From: an uncultured Pontibacter sp.
Lineage (GTDB): Bacteria > Bacteroidota > Bacteroidia > Cytophagales > Hymenobacteraceae
Length of the DNA stretch: 64,000 bases
Reading direction: 5' to 3'
Assembly (NCBI RefSeq): GCF_947495565.1
Contig: NZ_CANLZM010000006.1
Coordinates: 62,001-126,000 of the forward strand
Shown here: one piece after another, positions 9,575-59,083 of the stretch
Position numbering within the stretch: position 1 is the stretch's first letter
Layout: each line of letters starts with the position of its first letter
Translations under genes and position numbers: made by a program
Notes under the pieces: model-generated
Told to the model about the DNA's origin: nothing
The model's input: only the letters and a program-made list of their open reading frames with translations
Database searches by the model: none

Positions 9575-9632
9575 AAAGCATAAAAGCAGCAAGGGAGCTA
9601 CCATGGTAGCTCCCTTGCTGCTTTTATGCTTT
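9575..9632. terminator. Perfect 58-bp palindrome, bidirectional terminator
   Basis: The sequence is its own reverse complement over all 58 bases (29-bp arms, no spacer, centre CCATGG at 9601-9606). It lies between susD on the plus strand and the erythromycin-esterase gene on the minus strand, which converge here. A T-rich tail follows on the right, and the left arm begins AAA, so it can end transcription from both sides. Confidence 0.8.
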
Positions 9633-9646
9633 TCTTTACCCACCTA

Positions 9647-10927
9647 TCAATAGTTCCAAGGGTATAGATCTGGCTCCTTGCCGCCCCGGCTTTTCATGCG
9701 GAGCGGGTGCACGGCTTCTGACTCATCAAAATAAATAAAGGCATCATACCGATCCGGGATAACGGTAGGGACATAGTTTCCGAACATCTCAAACTTAGGA
9801 TCATATACCACTCCTATTGCGCGGTGCCCGATAAGCTCCTGCAGTTCGGGCACATTCCGGAGGTCTTTGGAAAGTATGATTTTATCGTCGGTGCTGATGT
9901 TGTGGAGCATTTCTTCCCAGCTGCCGCTAGCCGCAGGCGGAACATCCATTTTTTGCATCGGTGCCCCCCAAGATCTGCCGGCTATTACAGTGCCCTGGTA
10001 AGAACCAAAGCCAACCAGCCGTACCTTATCGTGGCCATACTTCTGGCGGGCCAGCTGCCCGATATTATACATGCCGTTATCTGCCATATCGGTAAAGCGC
10101 GCGTCGCCGATGTGCGTGTTGTGCTCCCATACGATAGCTTTGGAACCCGAACCGTGAAAATCCAGCAGCCGGTCCAGCGTCTCCATCATGTGGCTGTCGC
10201 GCACGTTCCAGGAGTTGGTGCTGCCGTTTATCATGGCGCGGTAATATTTTTCTGCGTTAGCGGCTACCAGTGCGTTTTGCTTGGTGTTAAAATCCTGCTC
10301 CGGGTCGTTGCTGAAGCTGCGGTGCTGCTGTACTTTTTGCAGCATTTCAATCACTTCCCGTTCGCAATCGGTGGGCACAAAGGCTGTGGCCTGGGCATAG
10401 GTCTGCGGGTCGCGGTTAAAAGGCTCAAAACAGTTGATGGCCAAGCGGGCAGCCTCCGCGGCCTGTCCGTCGTTGCTTTCCAAATACCGCACAATCTGCT
10501 CCAAAGACTCCCACAGGCTGTACACATCCAACCCGTAGAAACCTGCCTTCTCCCCTTGCCTGCGCTGGTTATTGTGCTCCCGGAGCCACTCTACCAGCGC
10601 CGCCACCTCCCAGTTGGCCCACATCCAGGTAGGCCACCGCCGATACACCTCCAACACCTCGGCAATCTTACTGCCCGCGTTAGGATACCCTTTTATAAAG
10701 CGGTTGATGGCATAACACTCCGGCCAGTCGCCCTCCACTGCTATAAAGTCAAAGCCCTTCTCCTGGATCAGCCTTCTGGAAATGGCCGTTCGCCAGGAAT
10801 AATACTCGGAAGTGCCGTGCGAGGCTTCTCCCAGCATCACCACGCGGGCGTCGCCTATTTCCTCTAATAATACATCAAGATCCCTCTCTTTTGTGAGCGT
10901 AGTATAATGAAAAGGTTTTTGTCCCAT
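9647..10927 (-). CDS. Erythromycin esterase family protein
   Basis: A 426-residue protein of the EreA/EreB-like superfamily. The signature VVMLGEASHGTSEYYSWR lies near residues 29-46, with the catalytic-region Glu34 and His37. A second conserved block, IVWEHNTHIGD, lies in the middle. No signal peptide is seen, so it is probably cytoplasmic. True Ere enzymes open the macrolide lactone by hydrolysis, but most chromosomal members of this family in environmental bacteria have no proven resistance role and may act on other esters. No resistance or mobile genes are nearby. The family call is strong; resistance should not be assumed. Confidence 0.85.
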   Translation of the reverse strand: MGQKPFHYTTLTKERDLDVLLEEIGDARVVMLGEASHGTSEYYSWRTAISRRLIQEKGFDFIAVEGDWPECYAINRFIKGYPNAGSKIAEVLEVYRRWPTWMWANWEVAALVEWLREHNNQRRQGEKAGFYGLDVYSLWESLEQIVRYLESNDGQAAEAARLAINCFEPFNRDPQTYAQATAFVPTDCEREVIEMLQKVQQHRSFSNDPEQDFNTKQNALVAANAEKYYRAMINGSTNSWNVRDSHMMETLDRLLDFHGSGSKAIVWEHNTHIGDARFTDMADNGMYNIGQLARQKYGHDKVRLVGFGSYQGTVIAGRSWGAPMQKMDVPPAASGSWEEMLHNISTDDKIILSKDLRNVPELQELIGHRAIGVVYDPKFEMFGNYVPTVIPDRYDAFIYFDESEAVHPLRMKSRGGKEPDLYPWNY

Positions 10928-55189: not shown

Positions 55190-55456
55190 CTACCCTTCCA
55201 GCAGAAACGGCTGAGAATCTTTTATCTTGAGGTCTAAACCCCATTTTTCCAGCAAAGGAGCTTCCAGAGCTTTCTCACGGTACTCATCCGGCGTCATGAT
55301 TGGGATGCCATATATGATGGGATAATAGCGCCTGCACACAGGGCAGGTTAGCAGCCCCTCCTGTATATCGCCGTTCTCCAGCGCAGTGAAAACCTTTGCA
55401 TTCAGGTCGTGCTTATCTATGGGGCAGCAAAGTTTAGTTAAAAGCGATGGGTTCAT
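55190..55456 (-). CDS. Trm112-like zinc-ribbon protein
   Basis: An 88-residue protein. The ATG at 55456 overlaps the ThiE-like stop as ATGA; the longer open frame is not needed. It starts MNPSLLTKLCCPIDKHDL and has TCPVCRRYYPIIYGIPIM, matching Trm112/UPF0434: Cys11 and Cys38/Cys41 are in place, but the fourth usual Cys position of the first knuckle is Asp14. Trm112 proteins bind and activate class I methyltransferases in eukaryotes and archaea, and bacterial forms often lie beside methyltransferase genes. A methyltransferase is the first gene of this operon, so a partnership is a fair inference. Confidence 0.8.
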   Translation of the reverse strand: MNPSLLTKLCCPIDKHDLNAKVFTALENGDIQEGLLTCPVCRRYYPIIYGIPIMTPDEYREKALEAPLLEKWGLDLKIKDSQPFLLEG

Positions 55457-56097
55457 TTCTGTAGTTTGGTTAAAGCGTTTACATAAGCGGAGGCCGACTT
55501 TTGCGGTGACTCCGCCTGCAGAATACCTGAGATAACGGCCACGCCGGTAAAATCCAGATCCTGCCATCCGTTCATATTTTCAGTTGTTATTCCTCCTGAT
55601 AAAAAGAAGGGGATGCGAGTCATTTTCCTTGCCTGCCGCACCGTTTCGGGGCGCACCATATCGCAGCTGCTGACGGAGCCGGAGGTGAACATAGAACAGA
55701 ACGAGACATAATCTGCCTGGTGCTCCTCTGCCCACCAGATTACCTCCAGGTTGTTGCTGCAGGTAATGCCACAGATAAAGTGTCGGTTCAGTTCCTGCCG
55801 AATGGCCTGAAGGTCTGCGGGCGGCCTGTCGAAATGCACACCCGCTAGCGCCGTGTTTTTCAAAAGCCGCCACTCCTCGTTGATCAGTACAGGTACCTGG
55901 GCGGCAACGTCTAGGATGGCACGCACAAGCTCCTCTTTGGCAGGCATATCAAAGTGCGCAGGCCAGTTGCTCCAGACCTGCACCACGTTTACGCCTCCTG
56001 CCAGAGCACTTTTCAGCTTAGCCAGCAGCGTGGCTCTTTCCATACTTGGGTCGAGCACCAGGTATACACCGCTGAGTTGTTCTTTTTTCGCGCTCAT
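55453..56097 (-). CDS. ThiE-like protein lacking canonical active-site residues
   Basis: A 214-residue TIM-barrel protein if started at 56097, which makes an ATGA overlap with the preceding gene like the other junctions of this operon; ATG at 56103 would add two residues. The fold of thiamine phosphate synthase is clear: LSGVYLVLDP, GGVNVVQVW, VPVLINEEW, AGVHFDRPP, CGITCSN, FFLSGGITTENM, GVAVISGIL. But the usual QxREK becomes QVWSN, NDR becomes NEE, and the FPTxTK phosphate-loop region is FTSGSVSSCD. These are the residues that bind the pyrimidine pyrophosphate in true ThiE, so the normal reaction is doubtful. Confidence 0.82.
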   Translation of the reverse strand: MSAKKEQLSGVYLVLDPSMERATLLAKLKSALAGGVNVVQVWSNWPAHFDMPAKEELVRAILDVAAQVPVLINEEWRLLKNTALAGVHFDRPPADLQAIRQELNRHFICGITCSNNLEVIWWAEEHQADYVSFCSMFTSGSVSSCDMVRPETVRQARKMTRIPFFLSGGITTENMNGWQDLDFTGVAVISGILQAESPQKSASAYVNALTKLQK

Positions 56098-57158
56098 TTC
56101 CATCCAGCTTTAAAAGCATTGAAAAATGCGCCCCAGTAAGGATCGGTGCCATCAAAGGCGAGTGGCTTCTCCTCTCCGTTTTCCCGTATCTTAAATCCAT
56201 CCTGCGATGCTGTCATCTCTCCTACCACAGTGGCTTTGATGGATTTAGAGGCTAAGTGGCGGACAAGATCATCTTCCCGGCCTTTCTTGATAGCCATCAC
56301 CATAGAGCCAGCTCCCACGGAAAATCGATGGTCGATGCCGAACAAACCGGCAATTTGGCGTTGGGCCTCCCCTACCGGCAGCTTTTCATTATCCAGGGTA
56401 AACCCGCAGCCACAGGCCTGAGCCATCTCGCAAATAGCACCCACTACGCCTCCCTCGGTCACGTCGTGCATGGCTTTAAGCTCCAGGTTATGCTGCAGCG
56501 CCTCCGCAGCTGCCAGGGCATCGGGCAGTGAGGAAGTGCGGTAAAAGTTTTCGCAGCCTTGCTCGTATACTTCCCTGCCCAGTTTGTTCTTCACCGTTTC
56601 CGGAAAGCTTATGGCAAGTATAGAAGTGGAGGTTAGCGCGGTTTCCTTCGTCACGACAAGCACATCACCGGGCTCAGCCCTGTTACTGGTTATAATCTTC
56701 TCTAAAGGAGCTGTTAAAAACATGGTGCCACCGCCGCAAATGGTTGAGTTCTGCCCCTCAATCTGGCCTGTGTGCCCGCCGGTAATGGCCACTCCGATCT
56801 GCTCACAGAACCGGTGCATGTGCTGCCAATATTCCTGAAAGGCCACCAGCGACAGACTAGCAGGCAGGTTGAGCACGAACTGCGCAAACATAGGCGCAAA
56901 GCCAGTAGAGGCCATGTCGTTGGCCAGCAGGTGCACCGACAGCCAAGCCGATTCCTGCAGCCCAATGGAAGGGATGAGCGAAAGCGGGTCACTTGAAACA
57001 GCCATGCCCAAGCCATTGCCTAAGTTTATAACAGCGGTATCCACACCAAAAGTAGGCCCAAGCACCACCTCGGGGCGGTTGTAGCCGCAATGCGGCAGCA
57101 GCACGTCCTTAAACGTGGTCGCCGCTATTTTTCCTGAGTTGTCTTCAAATGCACTCAT
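56094..57158 (-). CDS. AIR synthase-related protein (PurM/HypE/ThiL superfamily)
   Basis: A 354-residue ATP-dependent enzyme of the PurM superfamily. N-terminal half: FGVDTAVINLGNGLGMAVSSDPL, HLLANDMASTGFAPMFAQFV and ITGGHTGQIEGQNSTICGGG. C-terminal half: MHDVTEGGVVGAICEMAQACG, the HypE/SelD/ThiL-type motif. The metal-binding GDDAA of ThiL is GVDTA here, so it is not a standard thiamine monophosphate kinase. Superfamily members activate a carboxamide, formyl or phosphate group with ATP. Overlaps the methyltransferase stop (57155-57158) and ThiE-like start (56094-56097), both as ATGA. Specific reaction unknown. Confidence 0.85.
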   Translation of the reverse strand: MSAFEDNSGKIAATTFKDVLLPHCGYNRPEVVLGPTFGVDTAVINLGNGLGMAVSSDPLSLIPSIGLQESAWLSVHLLANDMASTGFAPMFAQFVLNLPASLSLVAFQEYWQHMHRFCEQIGVAITGGHTGQIEGQNSTICGGGTMFLTAPLEKIITSNRAEPGDVLVVTKETALTSTSILAISFPETVKNKLGREVYEQGCENFYRTSSLPDALAAAEALQHNLELKAMHDVTEGGVVGAICEMAQACGCGFTLDNEKLPVGEAQRQIAGLFGIDHRFSVGAGSMVMAIKKGREDDLVRHLASKSIKATVVGEMTASQDGFKIRENGEEKPLAFDGTDPYWGAFFNAFKAGWK

Positions 57159-57880
57159 TTCACATCATTTAGCCGTACATGCAGTCCAAAAAAGTCGCCG
57201 TAGGGCTGATGCCACTGCTGCACCGGAAACCACTCAGGCAGGCCTGTGGCCGTCCACTCAATCGTATAATCTCTATCATGCAAAGCTTCCGCGATCACGG
57301 ACATCAGCATTTTTGGCGTGTAGAAGGTGGCTGTAACGTAAAATGGGTTTTTACCGAACATTTCCTGCACCCTTCTCCGGACCACCTTAGGCGAATTGCG
57401 GTTCATCATGCCGAACACAATGCCATACTTGCCCACGCGCACTGCTTCCCTGATTACCTTCACGGGGTCTTTGTAGTACTCGAAGGTGGTGATAAAGGCA
57501 AGCGCGTCGAAAGTATGGTCTTTGAAGGGCATATGGTGGGAATCGGCCAGCACCAAATCGCCGTTGAACAGGTGCACGCCTTGGCCCAGCATAAAAGGTG
57601 AGATGTCGCCGCCGCTGGCCTCAATGCCTATTTCTTTCCACCAGCGGGTAAAGCGGGTGGTGCCGCAGCCAAACTCTAAGAGGGTTTTTACGCGCGTATC
57701 ATTTTTGATCAGCTCCCCGATTACTTTCTTTTGCCAGATTTCGGCGCGTTTGTAGCGGCCTTCATACCAAAGCTCGTAGGTATCGGTGTGGTCGCGGTTA
57801 AAAAACCATTCTTTACGGCCCTGCCACTTGCGCAGGTCTCCTGTTACCAGGTCAAATTTTTGTTTTTGCAGATTGCTCAT
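57155..57880 (-). CDS. SAM-dependent methyltransferase, first gene of the TPP-riboswitch operon
   Basis: A 241-residue class I methyltransferase starting at ATG 57880. The open frame continues upstream through the riboswitch, but that extension is RNA sequence, not protein. The SAM loop is TLLEFGCGTTRFTRWW (about 67-81), followed by GGDISPFML and FDALAFITTFEYYKDP. The N-terminal YELWYEGRYKRAEIWQK and C-terminal EWFPVQQWHQPYGDFFGLHV are distinctive. A thiamine-responsive riboswitch starts about 65-165 bp upstream, so thiamine pyrophosphate should repress it. Substrate unknown; partners may include the Trm112-like protein of the same operon. Confidence 0.85.
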   Translation of the reverse strand: MSNLQKQKFDLVTGDLRKWQGRKEWFFNRDHTDTYELWYEGRYKRAEIWQKKVIGELIKNDTRVKTLLEFGCGTTRFTRWWKEIGIEASGGDISPFMLGQGVHLFNGDLVLADSHHMPFKDHTFDALAFITTFEYYKDPVKVIREAVRVGKYGIVFGMMNRNSPKVVRRRVQEMFGKNPFYVTATFYTPKMLMSVIAEALHDRDYTIEWTATGLPEWFPVQQWHQPYGDFFGLHVRLNDVK

Positions 57881-57957
57881 CGCAGGAATTATTATGTGAG
57901 AATAATCCTGACTTTGTAAAGCAGATAGGAAGGGATAGCGCACACTCGTATAAGTGC

Positions 57958-58048
57958 ACGGTTGGCTTACGATTCCTACGCTGGCATTATCCAGATCAGG
58001 TTTTGGGTGTAATCTCAGCCTAACAGTTCGTGTTAAGCACCCCATGTA
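57958..58048 (-). ncRNA. TPP riboswitch (THI element)
   Basis: On the minus strand the conserved core is complete: GGGGTGC near 58043, CTGAGA at 58018-58013, ACACCC just after, then ACCTGATCTGGATAATGCC and AGCGTAGGA between 58001 and 57972. This order is diagnostic of the thiamine pyrophosphate aptamer. A further weak hairpin (57930-57960) and the methyltransferase ATG at 57880 follow, so control is of transcription end or translation start. TPP binding normally represses the downstream genes. Confidence 0.95.
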
Positions 58049-58213
58049 ATTTTTGTCAAGTTAAAAAAAATACGGCAAAGGCGAAAGAGTGAGGAGCCAT
58101 TTAAACATCTGGCTTTGGTGCCGGTTGTGTTACGGACAATTAGGTTGTCAGAATCATACTTTATTTTCTTATTTTTACTTCACAAAATCAACCCATTTAA
58201 ACCAAGAGAACAC

Positions 58214-59083
58214 ATGAAGAAAGTACTTATCGGCTTTGCACTATCCGCAGCGCTTATGCTTGGCGCAGGCGCTGCACAGGCACAAGGCATTAAAATGCCA
58301 GCTGCGAGCCCTTCGCAGAAGATTGAGCAGGCTGTAGGCCTTGGCACTGTTTCCGTGGAATACTCGCGCCCGGCTGTAAAAGACCGCGAGGTTTTCGGTG
58401 AGTTGGTGCCTTATGGCAAAGTATGGCGCACAGGTGCCAACGCCTCTACCAAAATCAGGTTCTCTGAGGATGTAACGATTGAGGGTAATAACGTGCCGGC
58501 CGGCGAATACGCGCTTTATACTATACCTGGCAAAGACGAGTGGGCAATCATCATCCATAAAAACACGAAGCACTGGGGCGACGGCGGCCAAGACTACAAC
58601 CAGGCAGAAGACCAGGTGCGTTTTACCGTAAAGCCACAGCAGAACCCGCGCAAGGTGGAGTCTTTTACTATCAACTTTGCTAACCTGAAGCCGGATGCGA
58701 CGGATGTAGAAATTATGTGGGCAAACACGATTGTGCCGTTTACAGTTAAAACTGAGGTAGACAGCAAGGTAATGGCTCAGATACAGGAGCAGGTGGTGAA
58801 AGGCACTAACGTGAACCCGAACCTGTACGCCGCGGCAGCTAACTATTATTTTCAGAACGGCCATGACCTGAAGCAGGCGCACGATTGGATGAGAAAGGCC
58901 AACGAGAAGGACGCCAAGTACTGGAACATGCACACGCAGGCAAAAATCGAGGCGAAGATGAAGAACTACAAGGCAGCGATAAAAACTGCGGAGAAGTCTA
59001 AAGAACTTGCCAAAGCAGCCAACAGCGCAGACTATGTGCGCCTGAATGACATGGCTATTGCCGAGTGGAAAAACATGAAATAA
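58214..59083 (+). CDS. DUF2911 domain-containing exported protein
   Basis: A 289-residue exported protein from the ATG at 58214 (signal MKKVLIGFALSAALML...AQAQ). The DUF2911 domain (about 25-180) carries VSVEYSRPAVKDREVFGELVPYGKVWRTGANASTKIRF and AGEYALYTIPGKDEW. Residues about 195-289 form helical TPR-like repeats (NLYAAAANYYFQNGHDLKQAHDWMRKA). The family is found widely in Bacteroidota and Acidobacteria with no known function. Divergent from the TPP riboswitch operon, monocistronic with its own hairpin. Confidence 0.88.
   Translation: MKKVLIGFALSAALMLGAGAAQAQGIKMPAASPSQKIEQAVGLGTVSVEYSRPAVKDREVFGELVPYGKVWRTGANASTKIRFSEDVTIEGNNVPAGEYALYTIPGKDEWAIIIHKNTKHWGDGGQDYNQAEDQVRFTVKPQQNPRKVESFTINFANLKPDATDVEIMWANTIVPFTVKTEVDSKVMAQIQEQVVKGTNVNPNLYAAAANYYFQNGHDLKQAHDWMRKANEKDAKYWNMHTQAKIEAKMKNYKAAIKTAEKSKELAKAANSADYVRLNDMAIAEWKNMK

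Follow-up and report, generated by a model that had tools for sequence, protein, structure and literature searches.

A TPP-switched four-gene unit of Pontibacter and other bacteria as a candidate thiamine-supply module

A stretch of 64,000 nucleotides from an uncultured Pontibacter sp. (contig NZ_CANLZM010000006.1, positions 62,001 to 126,000; the whole stretch is called the window) carries, near its end and on the minus strand, a thiamine pyrophosphate (TPP) riboswitch aptamer followed by genes for a methyltransferase, a protein of the AIRS/PurM superfamily, a ThiE-like barrel protein and a Trm112-like protein. The four genes are under selection as one unit, and TPP control is part of that unit, as follows from the fixed gene order and the recurrent aptamer across loci: all four genes occur in one order and on one strand at 59 of 65 distinct loci, and the aptamer lies above the Rfam cut-off at 59 of the 62 distinct loci with at least 250 bases of upstream DNA. 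We tentatively favour the reading that the operon is an undescribed module for the synthesis or salvage of thiamine phosphate, or of the thiazole half of that compound, and that it would be off when TPP is plentiful.

The operon is likely to be novel. No description of it was found among the best-ranked matches in the open-access literature, subscription papers and preprints being outside the scope of that search. This agrees with the first-pass annotation of the window, made from the letters alone, which knew of no described system with such a composition and had named a known thiamine salvage operon of this make-up as the finding that would overturn its view; none came up among the same matches. 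Among the TPP-switched gene sets given for gut Bacteroidetes are the thiSEGCHF-tenI operon and OMthi/pnuT/tnr3 (PMC5613172). The canonical thiSEGCHF-tenI operon of Bacteroidota shares with the module a TPP riboswitch and a member of the ThiE family, whereas the module is devoid of ThiS, ThiG, ThiC, ThiH and ThiF and has methyltransferase, AIRS-like and Trm112-like genes.

The operon and its conservation

The features of the operon, in the order in which they follow one another on the minus strand, are:

57955..58054, minus strand: TPP riboswitch aptamer (THI element, RF00059); cmscan 62.5 bits, gathering score 54.3, E 7e-10, model positions 1-105
57155..57880, minus strand: methyltransferase, a class I S-adenosylmethionine (SAM)-dependent methyltransferase-like protein of 241 amino acids; Pfam Methyltransf_11, 55.5 bits
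56094..57158, minus strand: AIRS/PurM-superfamily protein (AIRS protein) of 354 amino acids; Pfam AIRS, 42.7 bits, and AIRS_C, 78.6 bits
55453..56103, minus strand: ThiE-family barrel (ThiE-like) of 216 amino acids, or 214 from a start at 56097; Pfam TMP-TENI, 92.6 bits
55190..55456, minus strand: Trm112-like small protein of 88 amino acids with a CxxD/CxxC motif; Pfam Trm112p, 35.5 bits, cut-off 22

In an Rfam scan of the whole window the aptamer exceeded the gathering score of RF00059 over the full model, which places it in that family. The fold of the leader was not significant (z -1.30), and a search of 57700-58300 on the minus strand gave no site resembling a terminator. The start of the methyltransferase at 57880 is conserved; the longer listed frame, reaching up to 58045, would begin within the aptamer. 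The first-pass annotation had the position of the operon and the identity of its parts right, and the gene content bears out its statement that ThiC, ThiG, ThiD and a transporter are all missing from the operon. Its description of the genes as joined throughout by ATGA overlaps stands for the methyltransferase/AIRS and the ThiE-like/Trm112-like junctions; at the AIRS/ThiE-like junction it is true only if the barrel starts at its third codon (ATG at 56097), the overlap otherwise being one of 10 bases.

The loci were collected by a search with the AIRS protein in one-per-species genomes (21 loci) and by methyltransferase searches of phylum and order genomes. The 72 loci in total were reduced to 65 distinct ones by removal of seven duplicates, with two genomes (G652 and G715) contributing two loci each; Rfam scans were run at the gathering score for some loci and at an E-value limit for others. 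Five of the six incomplete loci (L024, L234, L237, L239 and L246) reach contig ends. The sixth, L245 of G652 (2897-3496), is a truncated second methyltransferase (residues 5-147) with a second TPP aptamer of 59.1 bits, in a genome that also holds a complete set (L222). At one locus, L119, the aptamer falls below the cut-off with 47.8 bits. Chance placement of the aptamer was rejected on the 59 of 62 count, which likewise excludes the possibility, raised at the outset, that the riboswitch stands beside these genes in one strain only. Thus the proposal that the four genes form one unit under TPP control holds, and the search for the same gene order in other genomes, suggested together with it, gave the counts stated above.

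Overlaps between neighbouring genes are frequent at the 59 complete loci, namely 51 for methyltransferase/AIRS, 47 for AIRS/ThiE-like and 27 for ThiE-like/Trm112-like, and the last two genes are separated by 60 bases or fewer at 47 of the 59. The median identity to the window protein across the loci is 77 % for the methyltransferase, 56 % for the AIRS protein, 45 % for the ThiE-like barrel and 59 % for the Trm112-like protein; the methyltransferase relatives at 63 loci show 70-94 % identity. Methyltransferase genes listed with an internal stop in G648 and G577 were rejected as pseudogenes, as residues 4-239 are free of internal stops.

Two single loci show additional elements. In L235 (G577) the complete operon is followed, at a distance of about 3.6 kb, by a piece of a ThiE-like gene (residues 167-211) and another Trm112-like gene (9370-9776), which may have remained from a tandem duplication of the 3' end of the operon. 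In L012 (the same as L247) a match to the whalefall-1 RNA family lies on the minus strand at 488-550, between the methyltransferase and AIRS genes, with a score below threshold (33.6 bits, cut-off 37).

Relationships of the four proteins

The ThiE-like barrel belongs to the TMP-TENI superfamily (PF02581), its 92.6 bits over model positions 1-180 comparing with a gathering score of 27, and reaches 90.6 bits against the NCBIfam thiE cut-off of 145.1. It was aligned to ThiE of Bacillus subtilis and to ThiE and TenI of Bacteroidota, and residues were counted over 60 loci. Residues R59, K61, D112 and K159 (B. subtilis numbering) are presumably those that bind pyrophosphate and metal in ThiE. The position of R59 is tryptophan at 59 of 60 loci, that of K61 asparagine or histidine at 56 of 60, and that of K159 valine, alanine, serine or threonine at all 60; no acid is found at the position of D112 in any of the 60, in what is the least sure column of the alignment. 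The impression gained from the single sequence, that the barrel no longer looks able to bind pyrimidine pyrophosphate, is supported by this loss of the canonical residues. The GGI and SGI phosphate loops are retained, and seven residues (Q42, H90, T114, N117, C136, C147 and S192) are invariant at 60/60 loci. TenI carries its catalytic histidine in a motif of the SxSVH type; the barrel has Thr-Cys/Val-x-Asn where TenI would have SVH, and that histidine is absent. In a maximum-likelihood tree of 33 rows, the 25 ThiE-like rows form a clade of their own (support 99/97), apart from five ThiE and three TenI rows, in a tree that also gave a long-branch warning and in which the ThiE group is poorly supported (87/74). 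The barrel thus resembles ThiE and TenI in its family and phosphate loops and differs from them in the replaced pyrophosphate/metal residues, the two invariant cysteines and its separate clade.

With both Pfam domains above gathering score, the AIRS protein is a member of the AIRS superfamily. It shares the AIRS and AIRS_C domains and the conserved aspartates with ThiL, HypE, SelD and PurM, whereas its scores lie below the NCBIfam cut-offs for thiL (72.1 against 184.15 bits), hypE (69.2 against 251.6) and SelD (58.6 against 125). At all 61 loci that cover it, D40, D57, D81, GGHT (127-130, thus with H129), H231, D232, T234, E235, G236 and G237 are invariant. The aspartates presumably are ligands of metal and ATP, and because these residues of the ATP/metal type are invariant, use of ATP by the protein appears likely from its sequence. 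The protein ends with AFFNAFKAGWK and thus does not have the C-terminal cysteine of HypE. That the gene represents the cell's ThiL was rejected, since a true ThiL is encoded in 23 of 23 genomes searched.

The methyltransferase contains 92 invariant positions over 32 sequences, many of them aromatic and located at both ends of the protein. Its profile matches eleven PDB sequences, three of which are of the Bud23 type (E 7e-6 to 2e-4), Bud23 presumably being a partner of Trm112. The Trm112-like protein has C11, D14, C38 and C41 invariant at 60/60 loci, and a partner with a Trm112p domain is encoded together with the methyltransferase at 59 of 65 loci. The module resembles Bud23-Trm112 in this Trm112p-family gene within the operon and in the profile match of the methyltransferase; it differs in that the likeness to Bud23 is confined to the SAM-binding core and in that the context of the operon is metabolic, not translational.

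Thiamine genes of the carriers and the possible function of the module

The methyltransferase is present in 11 of 296 genomes of the phylum, in 33 of 390 genomes of the window's order and, in the order to which G171 belongs, in 15 of 128; that second order includes Rhodohalobacter by locus identity (L124 = L021). Carriers include Pontibacter, Nafulsella, Roseivirga, Lewinella, Rhodohalobacter and several metagenome-assembled genomes (MAGs). The distribution is patchy: in genus g1, 4 of 18 listed genomes have the methyltransferase, the window's source genome (G000) among them, and 14 are without it. The operon loci of G623 (L208), a genome of the same genus as G000, and of Pontibacter oryzae (L010) proved identical in the test applied.

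ThiC is found in none of the 11 module genomes, compared with 104 of the 296 phylum genomes overall, the expected overlap being 3.9 (Fisher's test without correction for kinship, p 0.0077). Within genus g11, the module occurs in G277, which has no ThiC, whereas ThiC occurs in G012, G095, G210 and G265, for which the tally shows no methyltransferase. A full-length ThiG was found in none of the 11 module genomes, six of which gave no match of any kind; in the five others (G190, G277, G069, G151 and G250) partial barrel stretches match the ThiG profile with 19-27 bits, some above the cut-off of 23. The partial match in G069 is the operon's own barrel, and true ThiG carriers score 352-361 bits. 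The absence of ThiC and ThiG first noted for the operon extends to the whole source genome of the window (4.52 Mb, 99.97 % complete), in which neither has a match. Each of the 11 module genomes has a single full-length match to the ThiE family, that of the module itself; the eight genomes of family f23 each give a further, unassigned partial match at the C-terminal end with 22-28 bits, in two cases over the cut-off. ThiD exceeds its cut-off in one of the 11 (G250), about 17 kb from the operon. ThiL is over the cut-off in each of the 23 genomes searched (11 module genomes and 12 others), and its presence was dropped as evidence for the function of the module since it is also found in 12 of 12 module-less genomes.

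All 11 module genomes have a second TPP aptamer ahead of a TonB-dependent receptor; these receptors are related to that of G000 with 29-51 % identity, and the aptamer of G277 is weak (41.1 bits). In G000 this second riboswitch (L025, 7236-11692) has upstream of it a kinase of the NadR type and a transporter of the PnuC type, which plausibly phosphorylate thiamine and carry it across the inner membrane, respectively. Among the 12 module-less genomes, eight have one TPP match each and lack both ThiC and any match to the ThiE family, and the four of these single-aptamer loci that were inspected all lie ahead of the same kind of receptor. Judged from the absence of ThiC and ThiG together with the TPP-switched receptor, the carriers look like thiamine importers without known synthesis genes that possess an additional TPP-controlled gene set. 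Further weak TPP-aptamer matches, with no evident thiamine gene nearby, were seen in G171 (L166, 40.2 bits) and G151 (L167, 39.1 bits).

The first-pass annotation had suggested salvage, repair or the making of a modified thiamine-like compound; it is borne out for the conserved unit, the altered barrel and the missing ThiC and ThiG, whereas action on thiamine itself and methylation of a thiamine-like compound are hypothetical. For a thiamine-supply module, we infer the substrate, the product and each chemical step. The product would be thiamine monophosphate or the thiazole-phosphate half, which ThiL, encoded elsewhere, would carry on to TPP. In a first step the methyltransferase, kept active by the Trm112-like protein in a heterodimer, would methylate a small precursor or a carrier protein. 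PurM, PurL and HypE phosphorylate carbonyl or amide oxygens with ATP; in a second step the AIRS protein with Mg-ATP may do the same, leading to ring closure or dehydration. In a third step the barrel would hold the ethyl-phosphate end by its GGI and SGI loops, and chemistry by Cys136, Cys147, His90, Thr114 and Asn117 would replace the coupling to pyrimidine pyrophosphate. An imported relative or breakdown product of thiamine is more likely as the starting compound than full synthesis from central metabolites. A more specific form is a route to thiamine phosphate independent of ThiC, ThiG and ThiE, in which an AIRS-type, ATP-driven reaction would close the thiazolium on an N-formyl aminomethyl-pyrimidine, a breakdown product of thiamine, while the barrel would hold the phosphate half and possibly donate sulfur from an invariant cysteine, and the Trm112-activated methyltransferase would supply or protect a methyl group; in this full form the proposal is rather improbable.

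Thiamine supply is favoured by the recurrent aptamer and gene order, by the absence of ThiC, of a full ThiG, of a second full-length ThiE and, in all but one, of ThiD from the module genomes, which all have ThiL, by the invariant aspartates of the AIRS protein and by the likeness of the methyltransferase profile to Bud23. In addition, on one contig (L011, the same contig as L240, from a Balneolales MAG) a true ThiL gene (8263-9267, 290.7 bits) begins 22 bases after the Trm112-like gene. Several observations speak against thiamine supply. The methyltransferase is its weakest point, having no obvious job in salvage. The exclusion between ThiC and the module is confounded by kinship, eight of the 11 module genomes belonging to one family. 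The eight module-less relatives that are without ThiC and the ThiE family evidently live without the module, and the occurrence of ThiL in all 12 compared module-less genomes gives no sign that the module feeds ThiL. The ThiL neighbour was seen on that one contig only. No source of the pyrimidine was identified, ThiM, TenA, THI4, THI5, YjbQ and thiamine pyrophosphokinase not having been searched for. Finally, L017 and L019, two of the 62 loci, show no aptamer at E values up to 0.1.

Alternatively, the module might mend damaged thiamine or thiamine phosphate, for instance with an opened or oxidised thiazolium, the AIRS protein reclosing the ring by ATP activation of the N-formyl oxygen and the barrel holding the phosphate end. 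The chemistry of the AIRS superfamily suits ring closure on a formamide, and the retained phosphate loops beside a lost pyrophosphate site, the TPP-switched receptor in module genomes without ThiC and ThiG, and the patchy distribution all agree with such a role. Repair should, however, serve ThiC-positive genomes equally, yet the methyltransferase occurs in 0 of 104 of them, and it has no clear place in repair either; we regard this explanation as unlikely.

The usual targets of Trm112-dependent methyltransferases are tRNA, rRNA and protein. Modification of such a macromolecule at low TPP, with no thiamine compound made and the ThiE-like barrel acting as a different enzyme or as a ligand sensor, would account for the Trm112-like protein, the Bud23-like core and the extreme conservation of the methyltransferase, with its 92 invariant positions over 32 sequences. 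It is nevertheless hard to reconcile with genes of two small-molecule enzyme families, AIRS and ThiE, at all 59 complete loci and with a TPP aptamer retained at 59 of 62, and it appears quite unlikely.

Less probable still is the production of a modified thiamine or antimetabolite, such as a methylated analogue, at low TPP, for competition or as an alternative cofactor. Here the methyltransferase next to a thiamine-type barrel, the patchiness, like that of an accessory trait, and ABC-type ATP-binding neighbours at 23 of 72 loci as candidate export partners would fit. The ABC cluster, however, represents similarity at the superfamily level in varying places, with no transporter in the four-gene unit; a maker's own TPP shortage is an unlikely trigger for an antimetabolite, and the strong conservation of the methyltransferase (median 77 %) is unlike that of typical secondary-metabolite enzymes.

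An ordinary, diverged thiamine operon, with the AIRS protein as ThiL and the barrel as a working ThiE or TenI, is suggested by the top NCBIfam matches (thiE and thiL) and is very improbable, given scores far under the cut-offs (90.6 of 145.1 and 72.1 of 184.15), the true ThiL in every module genome examined, the replaced R59, K61 and K159 positions and the absent TenI histidine, the separation of three groups in the tree, albeit with long branches, and the absence of ThiC, ThiG or (in 10 of 11) ThiD to feed the barrel.

Whether a bacterium needs thiamine is commonly judged by its ThiC, ThiG and ThiE, as in PMC12448291 and PMC9666465. If the module does supply thiamine, such predictions would mistake its carriers in Cytophagales and Balneolales for auxotrophs, and vitamin chemistry would gain a methyltransferase of the Trm112 type and an AIRS enzyme. 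Even if it serves salvage or repair only, it presents a cleanly bounded, TPP-switched problem of four genes.

Neighbouring genes and spread

The genes flanking the operon are common to close relatives, for example at ten Pontibacter loci, and are mostly different elsewhere. The widest cluster of neighbours, the ABC-type ATP-binding proteins mentioned above, includes ten Pontibacter loci among its 23 and varies in position; it is taken as superfamily-level similarity and not as a fixed neighbour. None of the other neighbours recurs beyond close relatives; among them are a gene for dihydroorotase in one MAG (L017 = L238), 43 bases upstream of the methyltransferase, and a nucleoside-hydrolase-like gene, read from its first residues, on the downstream side in L211.

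That the operon is a gene set common on plasmids or in phages was rejected, since a tblastn search with the methyltransferase gave no match at E 1e-20 among 72,556 records of plasmids and 50,697 of phages. A protein with 67 % identity to the AIRS protein (P0090) comes from a source naming a Woeseia MAG, outside Bacteroidota; either the module is more widely spread or the contig was misbinned.

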